Assembly (NCBI GenBank): GCA_030374765.1
Contig: JARGXX010000013.1
Location: 1,364,001-1,428,000, forward strand
Origin: Agarophyton chilense
Taxonomy: Eukaryota > Rhodophyta > Florideophyceae > Gracilariales > Gracilariaceae
Direction: 5' to 3'
Length of the DNA stretch: 64,000 nucleotides
Positions 787 through 40,885 of this stretch are shown here, piece after piece; the first letter of the stretch is position 1; each line of letters starts with the position of its first letter. Both the position numbers and the translations under genes were made by a program. The notes below the pieces were generated by a model. That model was not told where the DNA came from and ran no database searches. It saw only the letters and a list, made by a program, of their open reading frames with translations.

Positions 787-1859
787 TCATTTTGTAGTAT
801 TCTACTATGTCGGGGAATCCGATAGAATGATTTTCGCAAAGTCGCGGTTGGAACTCATAAGTGAGTGATGTCATCGAACTTGTGATGTGAAACGGCACAC
901 CGCGTAAGATGCCAGGAGGCAGGGTACAGTGTTGGGAAACGTGGTATCACGAGTGGATTGGCTTGCAACGGCGCGTGTAGTGGCGATCCACGTGGCTGGT
1001 TTTATTACCCTTTGCAGATGTATGTCCATTAGGGACCGTACCCATACAGTGGTTTGGCTAAGTGGCTGACCACTGGGTATTATTTACGTATTATTGGGGC
1101 ACTCACCCTGGCACACAGTATATAGTGTACCAGAGGTGAGCGCCGACTCCAAGTAAAGGAGACAACATGGGCATCATGACTATTCTGTTGCTCGCTTAGG
1201 ATTCCTTAACCGGAGATCCGGACGAGCTATAATAGATACTCAGCCCCCAACAACTTCACGAGCCGTCTCGTACCTACGTTCCATCAACGTTTTACAGTTG
1301 CACTGTTCACCCTCGCTGGCGAATAGTGGCCTTACACCCCACTTCCAGCTCACTGGTGTTGTAGCTCTACCACCCCTTTTCCTTCGCCGCAAGCGACCCA
1401 TCGGCAGTTCAAACGCTGTCGCAGGTGTCTGCTCTCTCCGTTAGAGCGGATACTACACATTTATTTACACAAATATCCAGTCAATCTGGTCCAGGAAACT
1501 CACCAGATATTGAAATTCTTCGTGATTTGCATGTGATCTCGATTCTAGGGATCGATCGAGCTGTCATGCACGTTTTCAAGTCATTGAGCTCATGTACCGC
1601 AGACGACAGGTGTCATAAACACAAAAAAGGACCACCATGCTCATCTTCGCAATGAATTCACTGTAATAAACTACCAAATAACCGAAAAACGGATCATTTG
1701 TAAGGTGACGAAGTAGGTAAGCACTGGAATGTGTTTTACAGAACAACCACGAGGACTCTCGATTTCTTGCCAGGAACATAAAGTGAGAAGGTAGTGCCCG
1801 ATGCGTGAGCTCTACAAAAATCGGTCAATCTCCAGCATTTTGCAAGGGAAAAAGTATAT
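787..1859. other. Intergenic, no gene recognised
   Basis: Only short open frames without recognisable motifs occur here. I see no supported gene, repeat or RNA. Confidence 0.4.
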
Positions 1860-2458
1860 TCAATCGTGATCGACTACGCCTCTCCCATCGAGGTAGTTCT
1901 CAATAGAGATTATCGCGCTTGCGGAGATATGGAAACTCCGCTCGTACTTGAGAACTTTCCAAACAGAGATCAATGTTGGGTGCTCCACGTACGCCGCGCC
2001 GCGGATTGAAATCAAATTCCGCCAGGTTCTCGACAAACGATTAAGCTTCTCCGTTCGATCTGGCGATCCAGGTGTCGACGTTCCAATCTTCATTTAAGAA
2101 AACGACCCATATCACCCGTCGCATCTGCTGGTACACTGGTGGGGTCATCTTTTCGCGGGCGTCCTGCCACGCTTTCGGAGCCAAGGCGGCTTACTGCGTC
2201 GTCAGTAATCGCACAATGGGTGAGCCAGTCGCTAATGTACATCGTATACCACTGAGTACCGACAGGAAGTCGACGAATGACTACGTATTGACCAATGATA
2301 TCTTTTTCGTGGACAGCGGCTGCGGAAACCCAGAAAGCACGAGAAAAAAACGCAGTGTGCTGCATCGGGTTCCGCCCGACGAAGTCCGCATACTGCGAAA
2401 AGCTCTGGATCACAACCGATGAAGTTTGCCGAACGGCTGCTGTGGAATAGAGATGCAC
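1860..2458 (-). pseudogene. Hypothetical two-part ORF, unrecognised
   Basis: On the minus strand a 122-codon frame (2458-2090) is followed directly by a 77-codon frame starting at 2093 (stop and next ATG form TAAATG). The two could be one decayed gene or none. Overlapping plus-strand frames at 2072-2754 (116 and 111 codons) are comparably long, so the coding strand is undecided. No motif, signal peptide or membrane segment is recognised. Low confidence that this encodes a protein. Confidence 0.2.
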
Positions 2459-2754
2459 GGGGCTGGGACCTGAGGAAGAAGCCGGAAACGGCTCTGTTCG
2501 AGATACCCGAGCGGGACCATTCCAAGAAGCAGTTATTTGATGATTTTCTAGGTTATCCTAGTCGTCATATGGCGTTGGTGGGTTCACCACATAGGGAGTA
2601 TTTTTTATGGAGAGTGTCGCAGTGTAATAAAGAAGACTTGAGGAGCGGTCGTGTAGAGACGCAACGTTGGGAGTTTGTTGAAACCGAGAAGCCGGAGTGC
2701 AGCACGCTGTTGATAAGTTTTTACGCTCTTTCATTGCGCGTACTCCTTGCTTAA

Positions 2755-6723: not shown

Positions 6724-7098
6724 TTAATAGCTCGTCTTCTTCACACCTTTTTCTAACACCTGTAAAAAACGTCTCTCCATGCTTTTTAGCAAATTATATC
6801 TCAGAGGTCGATCCAATGTTTCCCATTCTTCAATAATAGCGCTTTTAAGGGATTTTAAATCGGTAAATTTCCTTGAGTTTGCATAAAAGGCACGGGATAA
6901 AACCCCCCATACATTCTCGATAGGTTTGAAATCAGCACTACGTGCAGGCCACTTCATTACTTCAATATTTTTAGATCCAACCCACTCTTTTGTGTATTTT
7001 GAACAGTGTATAGCAGCATTGTCCTGCTAAAAAATCCAGATTCCACTATAAACATTTGAATATAGTAGAAGAAAATAATTTTCCAAAGTATTGCAATA
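6724..7098 (-). pseudogene. Tc1-type transposase, C-terminal part (broken)
   Basis: Beyond the LTR insertion the minus strand continues the transposase with QDNAAIH (second catalytic Asp), then WPARSADFKPIENVWG with the final Glu. There are 34 residues between Asp and Glu, i.e. a DD34E Tc1 signature. A TAG codon lies immediately before QDNA (reading WIF-stop-QDNA), so this half is also dead. The open part from 6957 to 6724 is 77 codons and ends at the natural C-terminus. Confidence 0.8.
7094..7098. repeat. 5-bp target-site duplication CAATA, left
   Basis: CAATA directly precedes the TG of the left LTR and is repeated at 18499-18503 directly after the right LTR. This proves integrase-mediated insertion into the transposase gene. 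Confidence 0.95.
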
Positions 7099-7961
7099 TG
7101 AAGAGCAACGTCCTCCAGGGAGGTTTTTGGGGACTTAAGTTTTTTCCGGAGCCTCCGGCGTGCAACCTCGTTATGAGTAGGAGTAATCCGTTTTCACGGC
7201 GATGGCCGGAACGCCGGTGATGCACCGGCGGGACCGGGTGCCATACACGTGGCCGCAGCGCCCGCGCGACACGTGGCCGCCAGATTGGCTCCTTTGTTAG
7301 ACGGACATTTAGCTATTTAGGATAGACTTATTTATTCTATTCTACGGTGACTACAGTACTTAGGCCGCCGGTCTCGTGGCCGCCGGTCCAGTAAATTCTC
7401 CCCAACAAGGGTGATCTTGGTCGTCCAGATCTTGGCTCTGGGTCGAACCGCCTGCGCGGATATACAACTCCTTACGGAGGGATTTCCCGTGGTGCACGGC
7501 TTCCCAACCCCCTTGGACTTTCAAGCAGCCTTCGTGTGTTGGGTATCTATTCCCACTTTCGTGGTTCCGCCCGTGTATACGGTTTGCTACACCCGGCAGT
7601 GCCGGCTATTCCCGAGTCCCCTCTCGCGACTCGTGGTCAACCTCGCCCTCTTGCCTCCGTTCCCATTTTCCTTCCCTTTTCCTCCCCTTCATTGGGCAAT
7701 TCCCGCTCTTGCGGCTCGCACTGGCACCTGTCGTGCTCGCCACTCTCGTGGGTTCTGCCTCCTCAGAGGATACGCAAGCACCGCTTCGGCGGATATTCTC
7801 GGCTTCTTTCAGCCTCCCTGCGCCCGTCGCGACGGTTCGGCTCCGGCTTACACCCGGCATTGCGCGCCGATCCCTGGGAGGGCTCTACCGCGCCGGTTAC
7901 CTCGTGAGAGGAAGATCCGGACGTCTTCGTAGGTTTTCCCCCTTGGGGGCATTGTCCTACA
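7099..7961 (+). repeat. 5' LTR of element 1
   Basis: Begins TGAAGAGCAACG and ends TCCTACA. It is the same length (863 bp) as the 3' LTR. Open frames of 173 codons occur in both LTRs but have no recognisable motif. Confidence 0.95.
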
Positions 7962-7982: not shown

Positions 7983-8105
7983 GTCAAGACCGCTTGTGTC
8001 CTCTCTGAGGTTCTTTTTCGTTGAACGGGTTTTCTCCGTTCTCACGGGTTTGCTTTCTATTCTTCCGTCGAGACGGTGTGGCCAATGCCAAGGAAACCGC
8101 CTAGC

Positions 8106-10196
8106 ATGGAGCGTCCTGCAACACGCAGCCGTTCCCGCCAAAGCGGTGATGCCAGGGGCACTGATGTTCCACAGGCCCTGGCTCCAACACCGGATTCCCG
8201 GGAGATACCGGTCACCGGCACTGAAGACCCGCAGCCTGATTCCGGGTTAACGACCGTCGCAACGGTGGTTTCTCCACCTCCGCGGTTGGTCGACCAAGCG
8301 CGGATTGTACGCTTGGGAGAGCAGCTCCGCTCCCTGCGGGCTGCTCACAATACCCTCTCGAGGGAGTTCACCTCTTTACGAGGAAGCCTCGCTAACCCCC
8401 CTCCAAGTGAGTTAGCCGAGGATATCCGCGTATTGCGGTCGGACGTCAATACACTACTCGAGTGTTTTGGCGCTCCGTCTTTCTTCGCAGAAGGTATGGA
8501 GAATCGCTTCGAGCGTCTCCGAAGCCGACTTGAGTCGGTCGAGAGGACGTTAACCTCGCCCGCGAACGCGGCTAGACCGGTTGTCTCTCATCGAGAGATC
8601 CAGTCGCGGAACCGGAAGAGCCGGAAGAACCGGGATTCTAACCGTAAGCACGGACACCCGTCCGACTCATCATCTGAGTCGGACGGTAAACCGAGTGACT
8701 CGGAGAGTTCCGATTCGTCGGTGAGCGATGACCCACAGGATCGTTATGGGCGCTCTTCCCGCTCAAAGCGGTCCTCTGCCACCGACGGGGCCATCCGGTC
8801 GCGTCCCAAGGGTCGGCGACATCCGGGCCTCAAACCCTTGAAGCCCACCAACCCTCTGTACAGGACACTCCTGTCCTACCGGTATTACCGGCTAGAAGAT
8901 TCCTCTTTAGGTCGGACACCGCGTGACACGGGTAAAGTGAAAGACTGCATCAAGCGGATGCAGCTTTCACTTCGTAACCAGTCGTTTACTGGGGATGATC
9001 CAATTCTGGTCCTGGATTTCCTACACCGCTTTGTAGCGGAAGCCAATATACTTGGAATGAACGAAGGACAAGCCTACGTGGCGCTACCCTACTTTCTACG
9101 GGGTGTCGCTGAAGATCAGTTTTTGTCGGTTCGGGGCTCGTCGCGAGCCTCCGAAGGAGGTGTGACCTGCTGGCCCGAGGCCGTGCAGTACCTCCTGCGT
9201 TCCTACGCAACCAACTCCGCGATACAAGCGGCGATACTCGCTTTGCGAGACACTCGACAACGCTCCGGCGAGCTCGAGACCGATTACTCGGTACGCCTGA
9301 ATAAGGCTTTCCACCGTTGTGGTAATGTATACCCCGCTGGGGAACGCTGTACGATGTTCATTGATGGCTTGGATCCAGCCATCAAGACTCTTGTCGCCCG
9401 TTACAGGGAACAAGAGCCGAAGGTGACCTACCTTGAACTCGTACAGTTTGCCCGCGCAGAGGGATATGCACTACGTGCACGCAATCCGGGAACCCGGTCG
9501 AAGGCCGCTAAGGCATTTCTGCTTGAGTCGGACTCTTCTTCATCGTCATTTGCGACAGATGGCATCCCCAAACAGGGTTTTGACAATACGAATGTCATCC
9601 ATCACGATGGTTTATCTATTCCAACAACGGAATTACTGTCTACGACGGATGGCTCGGTTGACTGAACCGCAAGGGACACGGAGAACGGGCAGGTCTTTTA
9701 TCTTAGTGACCGCCCCACTCCGGCCCTCCGTATGCCGTACTCGAACGGAATGACACGAAGTCAGCGCCCTGGATGGGTTGGAAACCGGGAGCCCGGAAGA
9801 TACACCGATGCTCGGAATGCCGTACCGCGAAACGCGGGAGTGACGTTGGTGTGCCACTTGTGCTACGAGCGCGGGCACACCTCCCCGCAATGCCTTTTAT
9901 CGCTACGCGATATGGCGCGAGTGGTGGATAATTACGAAGCCCTCTCCCCGCAGGAGAAGGGCTCCGTGCCACTCACGTCATATCTCCGCGCGAAGACGGA
10001 CTTCCCCAACGCATTGGCTCACACTCCGAATTCTCGGTACAAACCGGCTCAGCCGGCACGCGCCGCACCAGCGCCAACCCACGCTGGTGGATCTCAACCC
10101 GCTCCTGCGGTAGCTACCGTGCAACGGAATCATGCACTCGTTGCCGAGGAAGTCGGGCCTTCGCCCGACCAGGACCCTGTACAGGGAAAAGAATAG
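8106..10196 (+). pseudogene. Gag polyprotein of element 1 (one in-frame TGA)
   Basis: The ATG at 8106 is chosen because element 2 Gag also begins MERP. An upstream in-frame ATG exists at 8076. The N-terminal ~170 residues are basic and Ser/Asp-rich. A retrotransposon Gag core follows (around SFTGDDPILVLDFLHRF to CTMFIDGLDPAI, about 8985-9480). A TGA at 9663-9665 ends the first open stretch, but the same frame continues to a CX2CX4HX4C zinc knuckle (9852-9893, CHLCYERGHTSPQC) and stops with TAG at 10194. The knuckle in the same frame shows the TGA is a nonsense change or is read through. The product would package and assemble the element's RNA. Confidence 0.85.
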
Positions 10197-10218: not shown

Positions 10219-13200
10219 GGCGTCCTCAGAGTTGAGGCTGACGACGCCCGAGGCGCCGATGCCTCGCTCCCCAGTGAAAATCCTGACAAGGAAGGACACC
10301 GCAGATGCGGACTCTAAACACCTCGGTGTTTTGCGTCGACCGTGGATACGGATTAGAAATAACCGGATCCCGGATAGAGTCTTGGTAATGGCCAAGCGTA
10401 ACTACAAGGTTTACGCTGACCTTGGTCTGCACACACAGTTTATGGTGAGACATCTCACTGTCCTGGATACAGGTGCTGGGCCGAACTTTATTGTGGAATC
10501 GGTTTTACCCCCGCCATTGCGGTCACTCATTCGTTCTGAAACGGTACCCGACGTCTCAGACGCCAATAGCAACCCGTTGAAAACGGTTGGTGTGATCGAC
10601 CTGGTCGTCAGGCTAGGGCGGATGGTGGTTAAACTAACTTTTCTTGTGTGCCGCTCGCTGGCCGCGCCAGTTATACTGGGATGTGACTACTGCGACAGGT
10701 TTGTCGACGCCATCCGCCCACGCCTTAAGCAGGTGGAACTTGAGGACGGATCGACCGTCCCCAATGTTCGTCAACCGCTGAAGCAGGCATCGAGGAAACA
10801 CGTTCCTCTACCTGCTGCGCAGGAACCCACACCGGCGAACCGGGATTCTACGAAGCTACGCGTTGCCTCGTCAGTAACCATACCCCCGGAGAGCCAGGTT
10901 ATGGTTTCAGTCAATTCCCGTCAACACGGTCTTCGGGTTGTTCAGCCCTTGCCCTCGTTGTACGAGAAATTTCAGTTAACCGTTGCGAACGGAATCGTGC
11001 AAGTCACGCCGAATTCCCCTTTCAGGGTGTTGGTTGCCAATCTGGGAAAGGCTCCCCAGACGCTGGCAAAGAACCAAGTCATTGGGTCTGTGACGCCGCA
11101 CCCGCTCGCGATGCTCCCTACAAAGGTGACGGCTGCTAAAGTACTCGGAATAACTCCCTCTACCGAGGATGGTCTCCCGGTATCCGGTGCAGAAACCTCC
11201 GGGGAGGCACAGCAGTTGGCGCTCGATAAAACCGTCAAGACGGATGCATTTCCGACCTCGTCGGTTCCCACACCTGACACCAGGGCACAGCCTACGAGCT
11301 ACGATAAGATAGACCCGATCAAGGCCCTCGAGGACCTGGACCTGAGTCATGTACCGGTCTCACACCGGGACCGCTTACGCGGAATGCTACGCGAGTTTAC
11401 CACAATGTGGGACGGCTCACTGGGTGAGATCAATACAACCGAACATCGGATAGACCTGCTACCGGACGCACGTCCGGTTGCACAACCCCCTTACAGGGCG
11501 GGACCGAAAGCTCGGGAGGAGGAAGAATTTCAGGTGGACAAGATGCTCCGTGCTGGAGTCATCGAGCCCGCCCAATCTCCTTGGGCTTCACCGGTTGTGT
11601 TGGCCCTCAAGGCTGACGGCACGTGGCGGTTTTGCGTTGACTACCGCCGCCTCAATGCCGTCACCGTGAGGGACACCTACCCGATCCCGCGCATGGACAA
11701 GTGTATAGACTCGCTCGGGGACGCTACCGTGTTTACGGCTCTGGATGCTAACTGGGGCTACTGGCAAGTCCCAGTCCGGGAAGAGGACCGAGACAAAACC
11801 GCGTTTGTTTGCCACTCGGGTTCCTACCGCTTCAAGCGGATGCCGTTTGGTTTAACCAATGCACCGGCCACCTTTAAAAGAGCAATAGACATACTGATGT
11901 CGCGTTTCAAGTGGCGCACGTGCCTTGTCTACTTGGACGACATCATTGTCTTTTCCAGAAACCTGGACGATCACCTGACCCAAGTGCTGGACGTGATGAC
12001 CGTACTGCGAGACGCAGGAATAACCCTCAAGTTGAGGAAGTGCGAGTTCTTCACCGACACGGTGAAGTATCTCGGGCACGTCATCCGTCCAGGACGGTTA
12101 ATGATCGAACAAGTTCGTATCAAGTCCCTCTGTGAGGCGAAGGAGCCCCGTATTCAAACGGAGCTCCGATCCTTTTTAGGTCTGGTCAACGTCTATCGAC
12201 GGTTTATACCGAGTTTCTCGGATATCGCCGCTCCGCTAAACGCGCTACTGCGGAAGGGCCAGCCACCAAAGCTTGCGCCATTTACCACCGATCAGTCGGA
12301 ATCTTTTCGCTCCTTGATTAAGGCAGTTACGACAGCTCCCAGCCTATCCTTGCCCAAACCTGGGCTTCCCTACTCCATCGATACCGACGCCAGCGACAAC
12401 CAGGTGGGCTGCGCACTGCTCCAAACCACCCCCGAGGGGGAACGCAAACCAACTGGCTATTGGTCCCGCACGCTGAACGTCCACGAGCGCAACTACTCGG
12501 TCTCCGAGAAGGAGTGCCTCGCAGTGGTCTGGGCGCTATCCACTCTGCGCCCATACCGAATGGGCGTTCATTTCACCGTGTACACGGACCATGCCTCGTT
12601 GAGGTGGCTGCTGAACATCGCAGATCCTTCTGGCCGCTTAATGCGGTGGCGCCTCCGCTTAGCGGAATTCGACTTCGAGGTCGTCTACAAAAAGGGTGTC
12701 CAGAACACCCAAGCAGACGCCCTCTCTCGATTACCTACGACAGGTGAAGCACTTGCCGACCCGGAGGTCGACGAGATCCCGTGCTTTACCTTGGAAGGGG
12801 AAACACCGACGGAGTCGGATTGGCCCGAAACCGGGGAAGACACCATGGAAATAAATGAGCTACTCGCAGCGCGCGAGAATGAAACACCCGTACCCGGGAC
12901 CTTTGTCCCCATCTCCACCGAGGAGATGATCCGAGAACAGTTCGGCGACCCGTTCTGCACGCGCATACGGGCCCGCCTAAACGGTGGAGAGGACCTCCCG
13001 TTCGAGGTAAACGACATCGGGTACCTCGTCCGGACGGTGGACCACCGATCCCAGAACGTGATCGCGCACACCCTGCAAACCAGGGTGCTCCACCTCTCAC
13101 ACTACCCGACCCTCGGGGGACACTCCGGTGGGAGAAAACTTTATCTAACCCTGCGAAGGGACTTTTATTGGCCCGCTATGGCGGTGGATTGCTACGCTAC

Positions 13201-14719
13201 GGTGCAGTTCTGTACCCAATGCTCAAAGAACCGGGTGAAACTCCGGAAGCACTCCAAACGGATGAAGCTTTTCCCCGCAAGGGCGCCCCTCGAGTTTGTT
13301 GCAATCGACATTCTCGGGCCTCTACTCAAGACGCGCAAGGGAAACAAGTTCCTCTTGGTTATCACGGACCGCTTTTCAAAGCTGGTGCGCACCGTACCTT
13401 TACGGAAGATCACCGCTTTCACGGTTGCGAACGCCTTCGTTACGCACTGGGCGTTCGTTTATGGCCCTCCGATAGAGGTTCTATCCGATAACGGTAAGCA
13501 GTTCGCCTCTAAGTTCTTTCAGGACGTCTGCGGCATCCTCGACGTCAAGAACCTGTTTACTACCACCTACCACCCGCAAACAAACGGGCAGGTGGAACGC
13601 TTCAACCGCACCCTACTCGCGTCGCTACGCTCCTACGTATCCGATCACCCAATGACGTGGGACATTTATTCTGATGCTATCACCTACGCCTACAACACGC
13701 AGGTTCACCGGACAACCGGTCTGACTCCCTTCGAGCTCGTGCTCTCCAGGACACCCCCGCCAGTGGCGGTCGAACCCCAACACAGGGTCAACTCTTTCCC
13801 ATCTGTGGGTCAATACCGCCTCAAGTGGAAGAACTGGCTTACCAAGCTCGTACCGGTCGCCCGGAAGTCCATGGAACGTGCCCAGGCCGCCTACAAGCGG
13901 GATTTTGATAACCGCTTACGCGGACCACTACCGGCACCGCCCAAGCCGGGAACCTACGTGTTCGTTCGCCGGGAGTACCACAATCCCCGGACCGACAAGC
14001 GTCACAAGCTCTCGCCTGTCGCCGAAGGTCCGTTCCGGGTCGTGTCCTCCCTCCCCAGCACCGTTGTGATGGACAAGAACGGCGACCACGAACGTCTTTC
14101 ACAAGACCGCATCGTAGCCGCCCCACCGCTGCAGGCGGAAAACGCATCAGCCCCCGTCGAAGCGGCCTCGGATACCACGGGTACAACGGTGGCACCACGC
14201 CCCGCCGTGGTACCGCATTCCTCACGGGGTCTCTCCGATATACCGACTTTATCGGAACCACCGGCAATGCCGGAAACACCTGGCCCTCGCAGCCAGCTAC
14301 CCTTACGGGCGCCGCGCAGCGGTATTTTTACCTGCCATGCGGTTAGCCCACCATCACCCGTCGCTCCGTCTAAGGAGGGGAAGGGGACCCGCTCAATCGC
14401 GGAAGCATCGCCGTCTCAACGGAAGTTTAACCGGACACCCCGGGCAAGGCCGCCGAGCGGGCAACCGGCATCGTCGCCGGACGCCAATCCGCTCCCGCGG
14501 GACGCGGCGGTCAACCCGACCGCCACGCAACCCCGCAAGGGGGACCAAGGCGCTCGAAGACCCGAAGCCGGGAAGCGAGACCCTACGGACGCTCCGCATC
14601 GCGTGGAAGCAACTAAGGGCTGGCTCCCCGCACATTCGCGGTGGCACACCGAGCGTTTCGGTCGATACCGGTACCCCGGCGGGCGCTGCGCAAGCAGGTC
14701 TAGCGAGCCACTCCGTTGA
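10191..14719 (+). CDS. pol: Pol polyprotein of element 1 (protease, RT, RNase H, integrase)
   Basis: Probably made as Gag-Pol by -1 frameshifting. The open frame extends upstream of the frameshift site and ends at 14719. Counting residues from 10232: aspartic protease motif DTGA near residue 79; reverse transcriptase with FCVDYRRLN and the catalytic YLDD (about 567); RNase H with YSIDTDAS and VYTDHASLRW (about 715-790); integrase with an HHCC zinc finger (about 955-1000) and catalytic D, D, 35 residues, E (DNGKQ to NGQVERFN, about 1025-1120). The gene order RT-RNase H-integrase is that of Ty3/gypsy. The C-terminal ~120 residues are proline/basic low complexity. The chromodomain is in another frame downstream. 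Confidence 0.93.
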
Positions 14720-15479
14720 GACCGGTACGAACCCCATGGGGGAAAAGGGGCGCAACGACAAGTCGAAAACCGCCTCCCTTGCCGAACAATCGGAGCCAAC
14801 CGTCCGCGACGGCCCGACCACCCGTCCTCAAGGTCACGTGACCCGGGCGGGAGATCGGACCAGTGGGCACCCGGCATCCCGGTCATTGGCTGACAGCCAC
14901 CCCGCGGAGGCGGATCGCCGGGACGGTGAACCACTCACCGCCCACGGCGCACCGCACAGCGGAAACTGGCCACCAATGAGAACGCCGCATGCCGCAAATC
15001 AAGCGGAGGCCTCCGGCGAACCGTCACCAAGACGGAAGGACCCCCGCAAACTCGCGGTAAGGGCGGACTTCAGGGAAGCCCCTACCGCCCAGCGGAAACA
15101 CAACACGGCCGCGCCGGCAACTTCCGCGAAGCGGTACGGCAGCCCCGGCAACCCGGCAACAACCGCAGAGCGGAATGACAATCCGGGTGACCGGGAACAG
15201 GCGACAACGAGCCCAGCACCACGCGGCGCTGAGGCTCGGGTCACCACCACCCGGCAAGGCCGGCAAGTTTACGTGCAGGAGTACGTCCTCGACCGAATCG
15301 TCGGACATAGCTACGATGAATACGGGGTGCTCCAGTACCGGACCCGCTGGTACGGATACGGGCCGGAGTGGGACACCCCGGAGCCCATCGAGCACCTCCC
15401 GCGCTCCGCGGTAATGCGATACCACCGCCTTGCGGGGACCGCACTCCCAGCCACGCTGGTAAATGCCCAAGAGGGATAA
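14337..15479 (+). CDS. Chromodomain tail of element 1 Pol (separate frame)
   Basis: This 380-codon frame overlaps the end of pol in the +1 register. About 300 residues are low-complexity linker rich in Pro, Arg, Ala and Thr. The last ~75 residues are a chromodomain: EYVLDRIVGH, then YRTRWYGYGPEWDTPEPIEHL, with the aromatic cage residues expected of the family. Chromodomains sit at the integrase C-terminus in chromoviruses and target insertion to modified chromatin. In element 2 the chromodomain lies in the same frame as the integrase C-terminal domain with a short linker, so here a frameshift in the repetitive linker is the likely explanation. Programmed frameshifting cannot be excluded. Confidence 0.8.
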   Translation: MRLAHHHPSLRLRRGRGPAQSRKHRRLNGSLTGHPGQGRRAGNRHRRRTPIRSRGTRRSTRPPRNPARGTKALEDPKPGSETLRTLRIAWKQLRAGSPHIRGGTPSVSVDTGTPAGAAQAGLASHSVETGTNPMGEKGRNDKSKTASLAEQSEPTVRDGPTTRPQGHVTRAGDRTSGHPASRSLADSHPAEADRRDGEPLTAHGAPHSGNWPPMRTPHAANQAEASGEPSPRRKDPRKLAVRADFREAPTAQRKHNTAAPATSAKRYGSPGNPATTAERNDNPGDREQATTSPAPRGAEARVTTTRQGRQVYVQEYVLDRIVGHSYDEYGVLQYRTRWYGYGPEWDTPEPIEHLPRSAVMRYHRLAGTALPATLVNAQEG

Positions 15480-15812
15480 ACCGTGAACACGGAATGGAAT
15501 GGCTGATGGCGCCACGCGCCATCTCCGTCCATGCCCCAACGCGGGGAAGGAAGCAACCGCTCACGCTATCCCAACGTCGTTGGTGGTCGTGCCAGTTACC
15601 TGGACCGCGCGCGAAGCGCCCACCGTTAAACGCGGAACTCCCAGCTAGGCTGGTTCCCTGCAACGCCGGAACCCCGGTTGAAGGCCGGTACCCCGGAAAG
15701 AAAGAAGTGGACTTGGGAAAGGGCGTCGGAAAGGCGACACTCTTCTTTTTATTTCTCACTACTGGCAAGGGCGCCCTAGTGGCGCCGCCCTACATTCTAC
15801 CGGAAGCTCCGG
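15480..15812. other. Gap between chromodomain ORF and antisense ORF end
   Basis: No conserved motif was found. It separates the convergent ends of the sense (pol) and antisense genes of element 1 and presumably holds 3' processing signals for both. Confidence 0.4.
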
Positions 15813-17588
15813 TCATTCCTCCGCACGAGGTGGACCCCCGCCCAGCCTGTTGGCTAAGGCATCCCGCATTGCGGCCACATCACCCGAGATCTCGGAAGGG
15901 CGAAGCCCCACCTCCCGAGGGAAGCGCGCGATGACCTCGCTTCGCTCCGCGCCGGCGGCGGTGGCGGGCCCGCCCGCCACCGATGGAGTCGGATAGGAAT
16001 CCGTTCGCACGGCATCAGCAGCCCCGGATGGAGCCGCACCACCGTATTCAACGGACTCCTCACCGGCCTCGCTGGACTCGTCACCCTCCATCGGAGCGTA
16101 ACCCGGATCCTCCGGTTCGTTGTCGACCATCGGGTCACCATCCGCATAGTCGTGGTAATAGTCGCTCGAGTCGACATACCCTCGCGGGTGGTCGGCCGGG
16201 ACTTCACGCGGCGCATGCCGGTTGGCTTCCGCTTCCTCGCGGCTGATCTCGTGGTAATCCCAGGGGTCGAAGTAGATGAAATCCCCCGCTAGCGCGGTAT
16301 TCCTCCCGAATCCGGGGCCAGACCCGCGACGCGGTTGAATGCGTTGGGAGTTCTCCAGCGGGGCCTCATCCCACTGGACCCCCTTCACAAAGTCGAGGAG
16401 GCCCAGCATCTCTTCTTCGTTCGCCTCGCCCCCGAGGGGGATGCGCATGTCCAAACGGCGGATCGCAGCCCGCACACGCGGTGGCACGTACCACAATCGG
16501 TATTGGTCGTACGCCTCAGCGAGGATAAAAGCCGCAGTGCGGACGGCCCATTCGCTTACCACGACGGACCACCACCCCGACTGGGGATCGTTCAAGAACG
16601 ACGACCCTACATAGGTGAAGACTGGGGGCAGCTCAATGAAGCAACCCTAGCACGCCTCCAAGGAGGACCACCAGTCTGGGAGACTGACGTACCGACCACG
16701 TCGGTGAGCAGGCGCGATGCGCTCAATCTCCGTGTTCTGGTACGGTACGAAATACCCGGTCCGGGCCCGCCAACGCCGCTCATCCCGGATGAAGTTCTGA
16801 AGGAAGTTCGAGCGCGACTGCCGCGGTTGGTAGCGGAGCTCTGCCCGAAGAATCGGTCGTACCCAGCAAAGGGCTTCTTGCCGAGAGATCGGTGTGCCCC
16901 TCCAAGCGAGGGTTTCCAATCCGTTGAGACGGTCGCAGTACGACATTTCCCCGCGAGTGCGGTAAAGGTGGACGTCGAATTCGACCTCTGGCGCTATCGG
17001 GAACTCGAAAGGCGCCCGATGGTGCCTGAGATAAGCGATCCGCACAAGCGCGGCCTGAGCCTCCGCAGAGGATTCACCGCGTCGGCGGAGTATGTGGTGT
17101 ACCGGGATGGCGATGCGATTACGCCAATCCCAGGACATGGTCACCACGCCGGGCAGGTCGCCCGGGAGCATCTCCGAATTATCGGTGTAGGGTTGGATCA
17201 AATCCTCGTCGCGGACAGCCAATGGGTGAAACCAAGGCGCATACCGCAACATCGCGGAGCCATGCCGAGTTCTCGGATTTGCACCCACAATGGCGTCGTA
17301 GGTCGGCCACTGCGGTGGGTCCGCCTGTCCGCTAAAGCGGGCGCCAATACGGCGGTCTTCGTACGCAAGGTTAGTAACATCCCCAGGGTGGGGCACGGAC
17401 CGAAAGCCGGTGGAACCGCCAAGGGCGGGAGTCGCGGATGTGTTATGACGGTCGGGGTTGGACATGGTGCGTGTTGGTGTGCTGTGGTTGGAATCGGATG
17501 CGAAGAGCTGGCGTGGGATCCTTGGTGAAGGTGTGTTGGTTTCCGGAGACCCGGTGTCGGAAGCGCTCTTATCATGACGAGCTGCCAT
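15813..17588 (-). CDS. Antisense ORF (aORF) of element 1, one internal TAG
   Basis: On the strand opposite gag-pol, a frame runs from the ATG at 17588 (34 nt inside the polypurine tract) to 15813: 591 codons, broken only by a TAG at 16647-16649. Upstream of the ATG the frame stays open to 17762 inside the LTR. Element 3 carries a homologous ORF at the same relative place. Shared blocks include MLPGDLPG, RIAYLRH, WVRPILRAELRY, GRYVSLPDWW, GCFIELPPV, YDQYRLWYVP, GDFIYFDPWD and GDPMVDNE. GCFIELPPV lies just after the TAG, showing that both halves are one protein. The C-terminal third is acidic, the N-terminus Ser/Thr/Pro-rich. No known domain is recognised. Transcription would have to start in the 3' LTR or nearby. 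Function unknown. Confidence 0.8.
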
Positions 17589-17622: not shown

Positions 17623-17633
17623 AAGGGGGGGGA
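17623..17633 (+). other. Polypurine tract of element 1
   Basis: AAGGGGGGGGA lies 2 nt before the TG of the 3' LTR, the expected site of plus-strand priming. Confidence 0.9.
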
Positions 17634-17635
17634 TA

Positions 17636-18498
17636 TGAAGAGCAACGCCCTCCAGGGAGGTTTTTGGGGACTTAAGTTTTTTCCGGAGCCTCCGGCGTGC
17701 AACCTCGTTATGAGTAGGAGTAATCCGTTTTCACGGCGATGGCCGGAACGCCGGTGATGCACCGGCGGGACCGGGTGCCATACACGTGGCCGCAGCGCCC
17801 GCGCGACACGTGGCCGCCAGATTGGCCCCTTTGTTAGACGGACATTTAGCTATTTAGGATAGACTTATTTATTCTATTCTACGGTGACTACAGTACTTAG
17901 GCCGCCGGTCTCGCGGCCGCCGGTCCAGTAAATTCTCCCCAACAAGGGTGATCTTGGTCGTCCAGATCTTGGCTCTGGGTCGAACCGCCTGCGCGGATAT
18001 ACAACTCCTTACGGAGGGATTTCCAGTGGTGCACGGCTTCCCAACCCCCTTGGACTTTCAAGCAGCCTTCGTGTGTTGGGTATCTATTCCCACTTTCGTG
18101 GTTCCGCCCGTGTATACGGTTTGCTACACCCGGCAGTGCCGGCTTTTCCCGAGTCCCCTCTCGCGACTCGTGGTCAACCTCGCCCTCTTGCCTCCGTTCC
18201 CATTTTCCTTCCCTTTTCCTCCCCTTCATTGGGCAATTCCCGCTCTTGCGGCTCGCACTGACACCTGTCGTGCTCGCCACTCTCGTGGGTTCTGCCTCCT
18301 CAGAGGATACGCAAGCACCGCTTCGGCGGATATTCTCGGCTTCTTTCAGCCTCCCTGCGCCCGTCGCGACGGTTCGGCTACGGCTTACAACCGACATTGC
18401 GCGCCGATTCCTGGGAGGGCTCTACCGCGCCGTTTACCTCGTGAGAGGAAGATCCGGACGTCTTCGTAGGTTTTCCCCCTTGGGGGCATTGTCCTACA
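17636..18498 (+). repeat. 3' LTR of element 1
   Basis: 863 bp, about 11 differences from the 5' LTR by eye. It is followed by CAATA at 18499-18503. As the only sequence upstream of the antisense ORF inside the element, it is the likely seat of an antisense promoter (inference). Confidence 0.95.
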
Positions 18499-18503
18499 CA
18501 ATA

Positions 18504-31803: not shown

Positions 31804-32448
31804 CCGCCATCGCGTTACAACAAAGTTGAGTTTCCTCAAGTAGAATCCGACGACAGCGCTTTCCGCGATTCGAACTTCTCCGTCCTTTCCAACTACCATC
31901 CAGCGATGCCGCCGTTCGACGATCACAACCGCATCCCGTGGGCCCTGAATTCCTCGGGAAACAACAACCCGAGTGGAACGGGGGCTTTCACTGGCTCCAA
32001 TACTGCACCGCATCCCCAATCGTCTGGGTCGAATCTCTCCGCGTGGAACTCTTCAGGCCCTTCCCCTTGGGAGTCTATCAGTCCGAGTGGTTGGGTTTCC
32101 CGCGAGCTCGTCACGGCGAGGGATCCTGTTCAGGATGCAGACATATAAGCCAGGGCTCCGTGGTCCCATCCTGCGGCGGTTAACAACTCCACGTTGATCA
32201 ACTTCTATTCGGAGGGTGGTATGCTACCCGGGGACCTTCCCGTTGCCGTCGTATTATCCTTCGAGTGGAGAGCGCACATTGCGGTGGACCCTCACTATCT
32301 ACTCCGAAGGAGAAAAGAAACAATGGACGATGCGCGCGCCGTCTTGGCGAGGATCGCTTATCAGCGTCACAACCGATCCCCCAATGAGTTACCGGTCGAA
32401 CCGGAAGGCACTCTCGACGTGACCTTTTTCCGTACTTACGGCAAAGCT

Positions 32449-33082
32449 TGTCGTATAGTGGCAGAAGGTCTGACCTTTGACGTTGTCAATGTACTAAACT
32501 GACCCTGTAGGTGATGGGTGCGAGGGATCTTCGGCCATGCAGCTCCGGCCGAGCTGCCATCTATGTGTTGTCAGCCACGTGTAGTGTTGACATGTACCTT
32601 CTGGTTGAGTAATTGTTAGTTCTTGTAATTGTAATTATTTTTATTTTAGCACAGTAGTAGAGTGGCCACCTGGCACTGTAGCCAGTGCTGGCCAAGTCTC
32701 TGACACTAGGTCAGAGACCGTGCCTGGCTGGCACCTCCCGGGTGATCTGGAGAGTGCAGTCCACTGCATATAGGGAACTGCACCTCCCCCATCCTAATCC
32801 GATAAAGACAGACACCACTTGGGTCACGACTATACCTTTTGGTTCATCGTTGTTCAACTACCACACAGGCTTTCCCGCGCGTCGACGCCTACCATCGTTC
32901 ACCTCCACGGTATAGGCTACTGGCCCCGCCGTTTGTCTCTGCGGGTTTTCACGGTGCCCTGTTACCATCGAGGTTTACTACTTTCACCTTCTAAGGTTGA
33001 GCGTCAACACGCTCCCTACGTTTGAGCGTCACTACGCTCCCGAGACAAGACAGTAGCATACCCCACAGGTGATTGTACGACA
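32449..33082 (+). repeat. 5' LTR of element 2
   Basis: Begins TGTCGTATAGTGGCAG, ends GATTGTACGACA. Clearly less similar to its partner than the LTRs of element 1 are, so the insertion is older. Confidence 0.9.
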
Positions 33083-33085
33083 TTT

Positions 33086-33103
33086 TGGTCTCCCGACTTA
33101 GAA
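33086..33103 (+). other. Primer-binding site of element 2
   Basis: Identical over 18 nt to that of element 1, 3 nt after the LTR. Confidence 0.75.
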
Positions 33104-33229
33104 AGTATTTTTAGGTTTCGTCGTACCTTCACGGTTCACACGAGATTCCGAGAAGGATTGGACGCTCGTACACCTATTTGGTTTCGGGAAATCCCGCAAA
33201 GTAATACAGGATACCACTATTGGTCACAA

Positions 33230-35438
33230 ATGGAACGACCTAAAAGGAATACGCGTGGTGCGAGCGCCCCGCCAAGCCACAAAGGCCCTAAAAGAGCCCC
33301 ATCGGCTCAACCGATTCTGGAAAACCCCGAGGAGCTGCTCCGGCACCCTCGGGACAAAACCGTAAAGGTACATGGTCCGCCGCCTATGGCAACGGAACCT
33401 CAAAGGGAATCACCAATTGAGATTGCAGCGGAGGAGCTATGGCCTCAGCTCGAAGAGCGAGCGAAAGCGCTCGTCACCCTCGCGGTCGAGGATGCATTAA
33501 CCTTAAAGGAGAAGTCGGATACCCGGATGGTTCCGCCCTCAATGGACGTCGATGCATTTACCCGTATTGTGTTTGACCGAGCAGCTCAAGAGCTATCGGA
33601 CATGATACCTGAAATGGTGAAACAGTATATCTTCACAGATGCTAGGGAGCATGTTTACCGTGCTGTGCAGGACCTTTGGGTTTCCGAGAGATTCGCAGAA
33701 TCCCGACCTACACAGGTGAACATCGCGAAGCGCATACCACAAGGGTTCCAAATGGGTCATTCCACGCATTCCAAACACTTACCTACTGATAGTGAGTACC
33801 TACAAGGTCCAAGGCAGAGTCAAGAGGTCCCGGGGAAGGTAGATCCTCAAGACATCTATCTGCCACCAATTACTGGTTTCGTTCAAAAGGATACCCATGA
33901 AGGTGGTCCCAAGGACGATTTGTCTGACTCGTTGGATGAGCGACGAAGAAACCGATTAGGGAAGAAGCGGAGGACTAAGAGGGGAAAGAATCGAGAGGAT
34001 GATACAGACCCCGACTCGTCAGACTCCAGTTCCGATACGAGTTCATCGTCGGATGATGACTGTAAAGGTAAGAAGAAGAAGAAACCGAACAGGGCGACGA
34101 AGAAGTGTCCGAAAAAGAACCGAAAGGGTCAAAAGCGATACAATGAGTGGCTCGACTCTGCATCGGACACCGAAATGGACCTGGAGGTGCACCAAACGTT
34201 GAACGATATGTTTACCAAAGCGGTTGATTACAGGACTTATCGGTTGATCAACAATCTTCTGAATACAACCAAGAGGTTGCTCAGAAGATTAATAAGCACC
34301 ACAAGAAGCTCAGCTTCCAAATGGGTGACACAACCTTCACAGGTACGGATCCTATTGCGGTGATTGAGTTTCTACAAAAGTTTAAGATTGCATGTGACCA
34401 AAATGGGTTTTCCGAGGGTGCTACTATATGGCTATTTCAGTTTTACCTGAAAGGGTAAGCATATTACTTGCTGCAGGGTTGGCTCCGCGGCAATACCTTA
34501 GCGATGGATGAGGATGCTACAGATATGTTGGAGTCATTCCCAGATGTGTTTAATTTCCTTTTGGAAACATACGCCAAAAATGAGATTATCCAAGAGTCTC
34601 ATTCGGAAATCCTCGCCTACCATCAAGGTCTGGGCAAACCGAATCAGATTTTTCGCTCGCGCTGTGGAATCTGTCAACCCGCTGTGGTAATTTCTTCACT
34701 ACCTCTAGGATAAAGTCACTATTTGCCGACAATGTCGACAAAGCGATCCGTTCCCAGGTACGCCACTACCTGGCCACTAACCGGAAGGTAGACTACAATG
34801 GGCTGGCTCTATACTCCCAGGGCTTTGGGGATACCCTTCGGCTGGGAAAGAGACCAGCCGTGCCTCCAACCTCGAAGGATAAACCGAAAAGGTCGGTCTT
34901 GGAAATTGAAGACACCACAACCTCAGGGGGTAGCTCGCACCTTGAAGTACCTACAGGGACCGCTATCCACTTGGTAGCGACCCAGGGGCGGTTCTGGAAA
35001 CCTTCGACGGTAGGAAATTAGTCGTCAACGCGTACACCAAACTCGGTACAATTGCCGCCAAGTTCGGTGAGCTCGCATAGGGTGCCGGGAGCGAGCTCCC
35101 ATAACTCGCCACCCACATCCTACGCCACTGCTCCTACCAACCAGGTTTCGAAGCCTCCCTCAATGGTATCGCGAGACCCCCCAACTGGAGGCCTCGTTTG
35201 CTGGTTTTGTCACTCGCCGGACCATTTGGCAAACAATTGCGCTAACTTACCTCCAGGGATGAGAGACCAGTCGACTCAGGCTCGCATGCAGAATCACCAA
35301 CGCCTCTATGGGTCTTCAGCGCAAGCACCAAATAGGTTCCAACCCCGTACACCGGCACAGGTGAATACCATCGAGGAAACACCAAACTTGGACTCCACCC
35401 CTCCCGTACAGGGGGAAAACACCGAATGGTTGGCGTAA
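33230..35438 (+). pseudogene. Gag of element 2 (frameshifts and stops)
   Basis: Starts MERPKRNTRG like element 1 Gag. The first open part (to 34363) holds a Pro-rich N-terminus and an acidic/basic low-complexity stretch. After a frameshift near 34220-34310 the Gag core is readable (FTGTDPIAVIEFLQKF, then stop at 34456, then LRGNTLAMDEDA). A zinc knuckle CX2CX4HX4C (CWFCHSPDHLANNC, about 35197-35240) is in the last open part, which ends at 35438. The string GGGGGAAAAC just before this end corresponds to the frameshift site of element 1 with two extra G. Confidence 0.8.
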
Positions 35439-38400
35439 TGGCCGAACCCAACCTGCAAGTGGAAGGCCAATCGATACCCAGAACCGTGAAGGTGGAAGAG
35501 AACACGTCACAACCAGTTCCGGTTTGTCATATGAAGTACAATAACTATAAAGTACGGGCTTCAATGTGTTTCTCCGATCGCCTTGCGGTTCCGGTCACCT
35601 GCGTGTTGGATACGGGGGCCGACTAAAACGTCCTGAACTCCCGCGTCATACCTGAGGCGGTACTTCGGGACTTGAGCCGACCTCCCGACAACAACCCGCT
35701 TGTGGATGCAAATGAGCGCCCACTAAACCTTCGATTTATGCTCACCACTGTGGTGCAGCTCGGACACCTCAAAATAAGACTGCAATTCTTTGCTGTCGAC
35801 CGTTTACCAACAGACTGCCTACTAGGTACGAATTTCATCGACACACATGTCAAAGCAATCCTTCCTGGTTCCCATACCGTCGCCCTACGTCAGGGGGAAC
35901 GAATTTCCAAGTTAGGTAATACGGAAACCAAACGAGGATGGTTCGTCAAACCGAAGAAGTCGATATCCACCGAAACGGTCTCCAACAAAGTGCGCAGTAC
36001 CAAACAGGTTGTTATCTCTCCAATGCTCCAAATATTGGTACCGGTGTCGTGTGCGACCCCCCGGCTGGTCGTACTACAAAACCATCCGAGGTTAGCACAT
36101 CGAAACCTCACCTTGATGGCGAACGGGATTGTCGACAACATCCCAAAGAAACCCTTTAAGGTGTGTCTCAGTAACTTCAGCAGTCACGAAGTGAACTTGC
36201 CGAAAAATAACAATGTAGACAATGCACTACCGGCACCACAAGGGTTATTCACCGTAGCTCACACTGATCTCGGCGAGGTCGCCTTCGATAAGGAAGGGGG
36301 TGCGCAAATGCTTCCACAACCACAAAGGTATCGATAAATACCAACTTGGAAGCAAAGCTAACCGATAAGGCATCGGTAGACAAAGAAAAGGAACCTGACC
36401 CTGAGAGGCAATGGCAAGATACAGTCCAGATCGGTGAAGATAACGGCGAACTGCGGGGCCGTATTCTCGACCTTCCGGAGGAGTTTGAAACTATATGGTC
36501 AAGCCTTCTGGGCCAAATTAAGGCCACACAGCATCGCATCGAGCTCCTACCTGACTCGATCTCGATTTATCAGCAACCATACCGTGCCGGTCCGAAGTCG
36601 AGAGAAGTAGAACTCAAAGAAGTGGAGCGAATGCTCCAAGAAGGTGTAATTGAACCAGCCAACTCAGATTGGGCTAGTCCCGTGGTTCTGGTTCAGAAGA
36701 AAAGGGATAACCGTATGAGGTTTTGTGTGGACTACAGGAGGCTCAATAGCGTGATCGTCAGGGATTCGTACCCGATACCTAGAATGGATGAGTGCATGGA
36801 CTCCTTGGGAGATGCACAGATATTTACCACGTTGGTTGCCAAGTGTGGTTATTGGAAGGTACCTGTAGGTGAGGAAGATCGAGACAAAACAACCTTCACG
36901 TGCCATTCAGGTCTGTTTCGCTTCACGCGGATGCCATTCGGTTTGCGCAATGCTCCATCCACCTTTCAAAGGGCGCTGGACATCATCCTTTCGAAGGTTA
37001 AATGAACAACCGCCTTGGTATACATCGATGATGTAATCATCTACTACAGATCGGTAGAAGAGCATTTTGCACACGTACGCCCCGTACTAACCGTCCTAGC
37101 TGAGGCGGGGGTGAAGCTGAAGCTAAGCAAATGCGTCTTATTTACCAGAACGGTTGAATACCTGGGCCACATCATAGGCCCTTGTGCCCTAGAGGTTGCG
37201 CCGAGCAACATTAGAGCCGTACAGGAGGTCAAGTTTCCACGATCCCAGACAGACGTACGATCCTTTATAGGTTTATGTAACGTCTATCGTCGCTTCGTGA
37301 AAGGATTCGCGAAAATAGCGGCTCCCCTGAACAAGAAGATCCAGAAGGGTGAACCTGAACGGTTTGAGAATCTATCCAACGACGAAATGGATACCTTTGA
37401 GGAATTGAAACGAGCGCTGTTGTCGCCGCCAATCTTAGATTTACCGAAAACAGGTCTACCGTACACGCTGGATACAGATGCATCCCATGCCCAAATTGGT
37501 AGTTGTCTCATGCAGGAGTAGCACAACAGAGACAAATTACCTATAGGGTACTGGAGCCGCGGTATGAATGAGGCGGAGCAGAACTACACGGTAACCGAGA
37601 AGGAATGTCTAGCAGTAGTGTGGAGCATGTTGATGCTCCTTCCATAACTTTATGGTGAGCGCTTTACGTTGCGCACGGACAACGACGCCTTAAGGTGGAT
37701 CCTCGGACTCGCAGATGCGTCTGGTAGAGTTGCCCGTTGGAGTTTGAGACTTTTGGAGTTTGAATACGACGTACAGTACCGTCCAGATATCAAGCACTAC
37801 ATAGCTGACGCTATGACACGCTTAAACACCTCAGGGTTAGAGACAGAACCTGTGGACGATGACATCCCTTGCTTTTTGGTGTCATCAAAACAAAATGGTA
37901 CCGGCGAACACCTAGAAGGATGTTGGGACTTCCTGGAAGAAGGTGCCTTGCGGAACACCGACATAGCCACGCAGATAATGACCCTAGAGGAAACGAACGT
38001 CATGCCCGTAACCCGAGAGGAATTTCTACGAGAACAGGCGCAGGATGCGTACTGCAGAACCCTGCCTGACCAAATTGGTTTCAAAGGATCACCATTGGAT
38101 GTGGACCACAATGGGTACATCGTGAAAAGGTCAACCTTGGATGGCACCCTTCAAAAGGTGGTTCCGAAGGCGCTGCTCCCGAGAGTCTTGTATCGCGCGC
38201 ACTACCCGCGACTATCGGGACACCCCGGTGCCGCCAGGATGTATTACATCTTGAGGCAACAGTTGTATTGGCCTTATATGGCCCATTATGTATATACCTT
38301 TGTAGGTCAATGCGAATCTTGTGTTCGTACCCGCGGTGGTATTCGAAAGCATTGAAAGAATCTCAAGCTGTTTCCAGCAGCCGGTCCACTGGATTTTGTT

Positions 38401-39725
38401 GCGATAGACCTTCTAGGACCACTTCCCAAGACCAAGAATGGGTATAAGCACATTCTAGTGATCACCGACAGGTTCTCGAAGCTCATTAGAGCGATACCTT
38501 TAAAGGAGACGAAGTCAACAATGCTGGCGATCGCGTTCCTCAACAATTGGGTCTACTCGTATGGTGCACCACTATACCTACTTACCGATAATGATTCAAA
38601 CCTGGCATCGAAGTTCTTCGAAGCAGTCTGTAACCTCTTGGGTATCAAGCACTATTTCACTACTGCCTACCACCCGCAGACGAACGGACAGGTCGAGCGC
38701 TTTAACCATACATTGGTATCAATGCTAGGACACTATACAGAAGAGCGCCAAACTGGGTGGGATGAGCTTGTGCAACCGCTCATCTACTTCTATAACCTTC
38801 ACGTACACCGGTTAACGCAGACCACTCCCTTTGATTTGGTTCTTTCGCGACACCCCCCAGGTATTGTAGTGCAGGGAAATCATACCACCAGCACTGCAGC
38901 TGGCGCACTGACCCCTGCCCAAGTTAAGCTGAATACCCTTGTGAGTTTGAGGAGGGCTTTCAAACATGCAGAGAGCCGCCTCACTGCAGCCCAGAAGCGG
39001 TACAAGGCCGAATATGGCCGTAGGGTAACCAAAGTGGTCTCTGTATTTTAGGGACAATATGTCTACATAGATAACCCACCTCCAGGTAAAAGACCACGAC
39101 CGATTGATGAAGCGGACGATGACGCTATTAATAGAGATATCAATCCAAGCTTCTATCCAAATCAGTGGGACCTTATAAGGTATTGAACGCATCAGACCAC
39201 ACCGTTACGGTTGACCAAGATGGAATACCGAATACAATATCAATTGACCGTATTACGGTAGCACCTGAAACGGTTCAACATCGCGTAGAGGCGGGCACCT
39301 CAGCCCGAGAGCCGAGAGCGGTAGCTCTGCGCACTCGACCCTCGGAGGAACCCACCCCAATTGAGATGAATGATGAACTACAACGGGATGATCCGGATTA
39401 CAACCCTCTAACAGGGACGGAAATGGAACCTCACACGGTAACAGCAGGAGCTCCTGACCCGGCTCCCACAAACGAAGCTCACAACTCGGAACATATGAAC
39501 CCTGGAGGTGGCGTTCCCCCGAAAGATCAGGACCAAACCTCAGAGGAATTTCCCGTTGACCGTCTGGTGGGCCACACGAGAACCTACAATGGTCTGAAGT
39601 ACACCGTCAGGTGGCACGTCTGGGGCCCAGAAGGGGACACCCTCGAACCCCCAGACGCAATACCCCCACACTTCCGGATCAGGTATTGGCCCCGTCGCAA
39701 GGAGCCGATGCCTGCAGACGGCTAA
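35426..39725 (+). pseudogene. pol: Pol of element 2 with chromodomain (broken)
   Basis: Protease motif VLDTGAD is followed at once by a TAA (35624). RT: FCVDYRRLNSVIVRDSYPIP, and the catalytic YIDD near 37019 just after a TGA that replaces the Trp of FKWRT in element 1. RNase H: YTLDTDASHAQIG and LRTDNDALRW with stops at 37519 and 37646. Integrase: HHCC region near 38200-38330, DNDSNLASKFF and NGQVERFN. After a stop (39049) and a frameshift near 39165, GPYKVLNASD is followed by a short linker and a chromodomain (FPVDRLVGH to WHVWGPEGDTLEPPDAIPPH, about 39548-39700) in the same frame. Inactive. Confidence 0.88.
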
Positions 39726-40885
39726 CCTTAGACCTTCGTGGAACTCAGGCCTAAGGAAGGGGGAGAAAAGACGTCGTTTTCCGCAGAAGGTGGACGCATA
39801 TACGTGTCAGATTACCTACAAGGGAGGACACGAAAGAAAAACCAAATGTAACAATAGAGGAGACAAGAAGAGACAACAATTTACTTTAAGAAGGACCTGT
39901 CTGTTTAGGAGCAAACGAATTAGAAATACCCGTGTTACTGAGTACCCACGGAGGAAAACCTGCGGAAATGCTAGGAGCCGTCGACCTAAGAGGTAGCGAA
40001 GGAGCGGTAGCCCCGCCACTGGGGAGTGGAGTCGAAACCAAAAGAGGATGAACGAAAGGAACCGCCGTAGTAGGTTGCAAAACGGCAGGGTTCAAGTTTG
40101 CACCTAAAAGGGGATCTGTCAAAGGATCAGATGGCGCAGTAGAAGAGACGGTTGCCAGATTGGCAACCTGACGGGTGGCCAGCTGGTACATATCCAACTG
40201 GAACTGATTCCGGAACTCACCAAGTTGGTTCAGCGCCTTCATGTATTGCGCATGACGCAGCAGCAAACCATCGAGGAGCGTTAATGCAGCAACTACGGAC
40301 GAAGGCCAACACCACAATGGTTGTATCGACACAGGCTCAGGCCTCACCGACGCCACGAGTCATTCCTTGCAAGGTAGACGAAACCTGAAAGGTCGAGAAG
40401 CCAGGAAGCCTTCAGGGAAAGACGGACAGCAAGTTCACGGTCGCGACGCCGCAAATTAAGGGCAGCAATACCTGAGGGGTTGTCGTGCCGGGGGAACGAC
40501 CAGAAGGGACGGCGCGCGCAGGGACCTAGGAGGGAAATGAAGTTTGAATAACCGGGAAAGGTGCGATACCAACTTGGTTAAACAGTGGGCAATGCGGAAG
40601 CAGAATCGCAAGCAAGCAGAGCCACCACCGAAAAGATGTCCGCGAGCGCGCTAGTTACATTGCATCGCCCTCAAGACAGTCCCTACCTGAATGGTTGTCG
40701 CTCAAATCGGGCGCAGACGTCGTCGCGCGCCCTCCCAAACCGACACTGGCGCCGAGTTCTGAACGTCAAGGGATCGCGCGTCGCGCAAAGACACCACTCC
40801 GATGCCCACGCCGCTGTCGCTCGCTACAACTCTATGGTTTGATGGAAGGAGACACGGGGCGTGCCTCAAGGGTAGGAAGGGAGTC
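39726..40885 (-). other. Element 2 region after pol, possible antisense ORF
   Basis: On the minus strand 40356-39886 is open for 156 codons. Its first half is helical (LLRHAQYMKALNQLGEFRNQ), its second half Pro/Ser/Thr-rich. The place and orientation match the antisense ORFs of elements 1 and 3, but I see no sequence similarity to them. A purine-rich tract (40871-40883) precedes the 3' LTR. Confidence 0.35.

Follow-up and report, generated by a model that had tools for sequence, protein, structure and literature searches.

Between pol and the 3' LTR of a retrotransposon in the red alga Agarophyton chilense (element 1), a long reading frame runs on the opposite strand, which raises the question of whether this frame is a gene and what its product might do for the element. 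Element 1 lies in a stretch of DNA of 64,000 nucleotides (C13:1364001-1428000), referred to here as the window, and searches were extended to the genome (79.76 Mb in 135 contigs), one place of which matches a 211-residue A. chilense protein (P0009) at 100% identity. The first-pass annotation had proposed a conserved antisense gene in the pol/3' LTR interval that codes for a protein of no recognisable family, and this proposal is supported by our analysis. We consider it virtually certain that the gene on the opposite strand is real. An antisense accessory gene is the best explanation at the sequence level because of its layout, the retention of one reading frame through saturation and a start hard by the 3' LTR in four families. 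We give an even chance to the fuller reading, in which a conserved antisense gene, likely transcribed from the 3' LTR, codes for a predicted nucleic-acid-binding protein that would regulate the expression or replication of the element itself.

The features of element 1, whose LTRs share 98.73% identity across an 866-base match, are compiled in Table 1. The antisense frame had been placed at positions 15813-17588 of the minus strand with about 590 codons, which we can confirm as 591 codons plus a stop. In the ORF listing the frame of the window copy is split into two ORFs by a single TAG. Between the antisense stop and the end of the frame at 14337-15479 there is a gap of 333 nt.

Table 1. Coordinates of retrotransposon features in the window.
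Feature	Position	Strand	Basis or remark
Target-site duplication CAATA, element 1	7094..7098; second copy 18499-18503	+	sequence
5' LTR of element 1	7099..7961	+	TG...CA ends; LTR-pair match and edge reading
gag-position ORF of element 1	8076..9665	+	ORF listing, Pfam scan
pol of element 1 (RT, RNase H, integrase)	10232..14719	+	domain scan
Frame overlapping pol end of element 1, with terminal chromodomain-like stretch	14337..15479	+	22.2 bits vs Pfam cut-off 25.1
AATAAA, candidate poly(A) signal of the antisense gene of element 1	15748..15753	-	60 nt past stop
Antisense accessory gene of element 1	15813..17588	-	591 codons plus stop
In-frame TAG in the antisense gene of element 1 (codon 314)	16647..16649	-	ORF read
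Polypurine tract, G-rich, adjoining 3' LTR of element 1	17623..17633	+	read from sequence
3' LTR of element 1	17636..18498	+	TG...CA ends; LTR-pair match and edge reading
Remnant of the same gene, broken, much older	~1468..2557	-	alignment, profile scan
Antisense pseudogene of element 3, piece 1	32149..32448	+	element 3 on minus strand; alignment, profile scan
Element 2, nested in the element-3 antisense gene	32449..41517	+	LTRs 32449-33082 and 40886-41517
Antisense pseudogene of element 3, piece 2	41550..42614	+	in-frame stops 41916-41918 and 42258-42260

A search of the genome with the first 313 residues of the element 1 antisense protein gave 1389 candidates, the best 127 of which, including the window's own, were scored; these are ranked by similarity and are not a random sample, and 98 of them are stop-free over the 313 residues. 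Within the family of element 1, termed F1, we compared 31 loci (L008-L038), 27 of which are ungapped and full-length and 24 distinct, the window's own included. None of the 24 has lost the start or the final stop, and 18 of them (window copy counted) are without an internal stop. The stop at codon 314 is private to the window copy and is absent from the other 23. Some copies with equal scores are evenly spaced at C68:3138009-3157514 and C77:295889-306077 (three 9197 bases apart and two 9249 apart), which suggests tandem element arrays or duplications.

Together with F1, three further families, B, C and D, have open versions of 591-622 codons at the same site (618 codons in B, L069; 608 in C, L080; 622 in D, L084). 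Family B, assigned by identity and position, occupies at least 77 places (query P0007), family C at least 24, counted as the rows at 37-39% identity among 107 matches listed, and family D at least 150. In the copies read from B, C and D (L069; L070; L083 with L084), pol and the antisense gene converge tail to tail from opposite strands. The name chromovirus, used in the first-pass annotation, may apply: in families C and D the chromodomain at the end of pol scores above the Pfam cut-off (26.5 and 28.8 bits, respectively), but the corresponding stretch of element 1 stays below it and no chromodomain was found in the one B frame scanned with Pfam.

Because families B, C and D were found via the protein itself, they do not provide a test of its presence. 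A census independent of the gene was based on the element 1 integrase (best 131 of 3940 candidates) and split into 95 places at 91-100% identity, termed F1-type, and 36 at 78-80%. The antisense gene is found downstream on the opposite strand in at least 67 of the 95 F1-type places, 3-6 kb and mostly 3.62-3.67 kb from the integrase, and upstream in none of the 95 among the matches listed. The other 28 places are without the gene among the protein matches listed, and two of these (C135:1288151 and C113:410860) have a DNA match. In the 78-80% family, a short match to the element-3 antisense gene was seen at the expected site in 10 of 36 places (control 1 of 36), which hints that this family carries an antisense gene of its own. 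One place of this family is C22:1514397-1532655, and most of its places are stop-free over the matched stretch.

Relatives of the protein are also present in other algae, namely in Gracilariopsis chorda (P0002; 61% identity, 87% of the query covered) and Gracilaria domingensis (P0003; 46% identity, 75% of the query covered). The relatives by sequence, BWQ96_03215, BWQ96_10156 and BWQ96_05177 of G. chorda and FGB62_50g12 of G. domingensis, are annotated only as hypothetical, and several hypothetical proteins of the Gracilariales are probably retroelement genes. Among 19 homologues, all nine that are named come from Gracilariales (G. chorda, G. domingensis and A. chilense), and the other ten are from ena or lgn contigs. 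A clean congruence of integrase and antisense-protein trees was not obtained, as the placement of B conflicts: an integrase tree of six pieces groups B with the element-3 family (support 0.974), whereas a tree of eleven antisense proteins over 170 columns does not.

The same ORF had been reported for elements 1 and 3 of the window. A related gene is indeed present in both, and the six motif blocks described for the pair are all seen in order in the alignment, with 122/287 and 49/98 identical positions in its two pieces; however, the element 1 copy contains the TAG and the element 3 gene is a pseudogene, a decayed relative interrupted by the nested element 2, at whose insertion there is an AAGCT target duplication. 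The element-3 family is old: counting fragments and the copy in the window, 14 of 41 matches listed are substantial, and a full open frame is absent from all seven loci read (L039-L045). Element 2 is a more distant relative with an integrase identity of 39.0-45.6%. As to whether other full-length relatives lack the gene, a point raised in the first-pass annotation, most F1-type places have it, but no homologue is detectable in element 2 by profile scan. Element 2 has an antisense ORF of 156 residues (39886-40356, minus strand) between pol and its own 3' LTR, which is rich in L, P and S and has no detectable likeness to the element 1 antisense protein. By eye, the end of its pol appears chromodomain-like, and Pfam gives no match. 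In addition, positions 6485-7098 match 29849-30457 in inverted orientation (74%), and element 1 starts exactly where the former segment ends; this segment may be an LTR of the element-3 family.

Other parts of the window hold features of a different kind. Positions 47887-64000 (minus strand) contain an 8.1-kb unit repeated in tandem (two copies, 98% identical), with an ORF of 1873 residues in one copy and of 1875 in the other, telomere-like GGTTTAGG repeats between the two ORFs and a strong GC skew. The first of these ORFs was scanned and contains DEAD/Helicase_C and OrsD domains, and the contig ends about 3 kb past the window, beyond the tandem units, which resemble subtelomeric telomere-linked helicase genes. 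Two facing ORFs at 24927-26501 (plus) and 26652-28205 (minus), of 524 and 517 residues, form an inverted pair, both with FG-GAP and UnbV_ASPIC domains. A 379-residue ORF at 20414-21553 (plus) codes for three ephrin-receptor-like/TNFR-like cysteine-rich repeats, which, as an impression, seem unusual for an alga.

To return to the antisense gene, its reading frame is free of stops in the single copies taken from F1, B, C and D, whereas the other five frames contain 3-30 each. Amino-acid identity among the four families is 31.6-48.4% in this frame, and the first, second and third codon positions differ in 0.37-0.53, 0.35-0.47 and 0.645-0.724 of codons, respectively. The next-best frame, with an identity of 25.4-38.7%, is broken by 20-30 stops, and its constrained codon positions coincide with those of the antisense frame, so we read its likeness as a shadow of that frame. 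In three family comparisons, the summed tblastx bits are 395, 322 and 330 for the antisense frame versus 157, 160 and 93 for the next frame. Between F1, B and C, pS is saturated at 0.73-0.78 and pN is 0.45-0.51. The first-pass annotation had singled out a dN/dS near 1 as evidence against a conserved gene; between F1, B and C, with some pairs without an estimable dS, the ratio is 0.186-0.266 where dS is finite, as obtained with a simple method near saturation, but among open copies within families it is 0.41-0.86. Among the 24 F1 copies, N/S is 1.79 for singletons, 1.95 for changes in 2-3 copies and 1.36 for those in at least 4 copies, and a polymorphism test gave no significant contrast (p=0.46). 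Selection among young copies is thus not visible; most copies had been picked by similarity ranking, and a copy is expected to decay neutrally once inserted. The recent copies look like mostly neutral decay.

The gene begins close to the LTR, with 47, 81, 24 and 35 nt from the antisense ATG to the 3' LTR edge in F1, B, C and D, respectively (one copy measured each). With these 47 nt between ATG and LTR in element 1, an antisense transcript would need to begin in the LTR or within this short interval, and because the ATG is 24-81 nt from the LTR edge in the four families, we infer a transcription start in the U3 of the 3' LTR. Judged by these distances, it is very probable that the antisense gene is transcribed from the 3' LTR. 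Past the stop, AATAAA is found at +60 in 21 of 23 F1 copies, the window's own included, and at +53 in all four family C copies, the background in 70-nt stretches being 1.7-2.4% for the window and 0.6-2.7% for element 1. None of six B copies contains AATAAA over 150-250 nt past the stop, and it is absent from one D copy as well; common to B (+41) and D (+60) is AATAGTAAA. We infer that AATAAA acts as a poly(A) signal in F1 and C, and AATAGTAAA is perhaps the transcript end in B and D.

The proteins of seven members consist of a disordered-looking N-terminal tail of 45-153 residues, a core of 323-330 residues, the borders of which were set by two conserved motifs, and an acidic tail. The core contains 28-40 R, 0-8 K and 10-15 W, and the C-terminal part has a pI of 4.1-5.1. 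Conserved blocks include RPILRAEFRY, RxERRxRSRxG, VPYQNxE and GCxVELPPxxTYxGS. AlphaFold models are poor (mean pLDDT 41.9 and 54.8) except for the first 100 or so residues of the core and a pair of helices close to the C-terminal end. In agreement with the earlier statement that the protein belongs to no recognisable family, profile and structure checks in Pfam, NCBIfam, PDB, viral and fold searches gave no family match, and no fold match stands out, the fold model being poor. No clear nuclear signal was found; runs of at least three K/R occur in four of the seven proteins at unrelated places. From composition alone, a nuclear, RNA- or DNA-binding role is predicted.

Based on this composition and on the analogy with Grande gene23 and HBZ, we favour a regulator, and place the odds that the protein acts on the LTR or RNA of the element slightly below even. 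An antisense promoter in the U3 of the 3' LTR would drive transcription, and the transcript would stop short of pol, at AATAAA in F1 and C and possibly at AATAGTAAA in B and D. The product, whose R- and W-rich core is flanked by the disordered-looking N-terminal tail and by an acidic tail that closes with the pair of helices, would be nuclear, bind RNA or DNA and feed back on the LTR or on the element RNA. More tentatively still, red-algal chromodomain retrotransposons could be called complex, in the sense that an ancient protein family, distinct from every known family and named only from Gracilariales, would be expressed from the 3' LTR, counter to the direction of the genome, and control the element.

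Alternatively, the protein could be a structural or particle component, for instance an additional Gag-like protein or a packaging protein, translated from an antisense mRNA of its own. The many open copies and the large, well conserved core would fit such a role, and the gag-position ORF of element 1 has no match in a Pfam scan, so that the particle proteins of this group are poorly known. However, the family-C element read already has, alongside the antisense gene, an ordinary Retrotrans_gag (PF03732, 34.8 bits), and a capsid-like fold match is absent, although the model is poor. It would also be unusual for a structural protein to be made from an antisense promoter, and we regard this role as unlikely.

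It is also conceivable, with a still lower probability, that the antisense RNA itself is the functional product, which would pair with the sense RNA and tune copy number via small RNAs, with the protein being secondary. The sense transcript would include the complement of the entire gene in its 3' part, and copy-number tuning by antisense RNA is discussed for plant elements in the accessible text of PMC7264820. Nonetheless, the amino acids are kept while synonymous sites are saturated, and this conservation speaks against an RNA-only function, since RNA pairing favours no single reading frame.

An env- or movement-type protein, which would help the element to pass between cells, appears very unlikely. 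An env gene would occupy the same site, between pol and the 3' LTR, and red seaweeds have cell connections; yet, compared with an env-like third ORF, the gene has the opposite orientation, and its product lacks a clear transmembrane segment in the seven proteins, in which the highest 19-residue hydropathy mean is 0.88-1.45, in stretches holding charged residues. A viral relative was absent from the collections searched, and the movement-type role considered in the first-pass annotation is disfavoured. Lastly, it is of negligible probability that the frame is open by chance, owing to its nucleotide composition or to a sense gene opposite it; this reading is refuted as far as sequence allows by the between-family dN/dS, tblastx and the frame and Markov analyses. 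The GC of 0.61-0.66 in this stretch, a 397-residue sense ORF in element 1 and N/S values without constraint in young copies would be compatible with it. However, sense stretches reach 411 codons in F1 but no more than 180 in B, 271 in C and 256 in D, where that frame holds 8-10 stops; a first-order Markov simulation, with 2000 trials for each of the four families, never produced a fully open frame; and the protein is conserved between genera.

Several abundant element families of a single farmed seaweed thus retain open copies of one protein family, which also occurs in other genera; this offers many natural replicates for tests of expression and function. A prior description of such a gene in red algae was not found in the literature searched, which was mostly without subscription papers. 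Plant, fungal and retroviral elements are known to carry antisense genes in this interval (accessible text of PMC7264820), few of them with an established role; in that text the fungal Ty3/gypsy element Boty is named as a case of this arrangement outside plants. Maize Grande gene23, rice RIRE2 and Retand of Silene and other plants (TRP28) share the antisense site with the gene described here, and plant antisense ORFs are likewise kept in many copies and several families, with a separate antisense mRNA being likely. The layout of the plant aORF-3R class is found in element 1 as well as in the single copies checked from B, C and D, and the F1 census shows the presence in most copies that is also part of its definition. 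For Grande gene23, a nuclear location and an antisense promoter of its own are given in the same partial source (PMC7264820), and plant antisense ORFs of this kind have been proposed to act as regulators (accessible parts of PMC7264820; PMC11963269). Retand is a non-chromovirus lineage in the portion of PMC11963269 available, whereas pol of families C and D ends in a chromodomain. PF04195 (TRP28, Transposase_28) was found in none of 19 family members at E<=10, and the whole genome holds one sub-threshold match (20.2 bits vs 26.2) and none over the cut-off.

In HTLV-1, HBZ acts back on the LTR or on the element RNA. Our gene shares with HBZ a predicted start in the 3' LTR, an orientation antisense to gag-pol and an additional protein with an acidic part, but it codes for a protein of about 600 residues, and no env was identified in the elements read. 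A bZIP domain is absent among the Pfam matches of the 19 members at E<=10, and we have set aside membership in the Retand/Grande or HBZ families, as neither TRP28 nor bZIP domains were found. The 3' LTR of HTLV holds an antisense promoter (accessible text of PMC7264820), as we predict for the red-algal elements. If our reading is correct, antisense accessory regulators would have arisen independently in retroviruses, in plant Grande/Retand and in red-algal elements, and would represent a repeated solution to the self-control of such elements.
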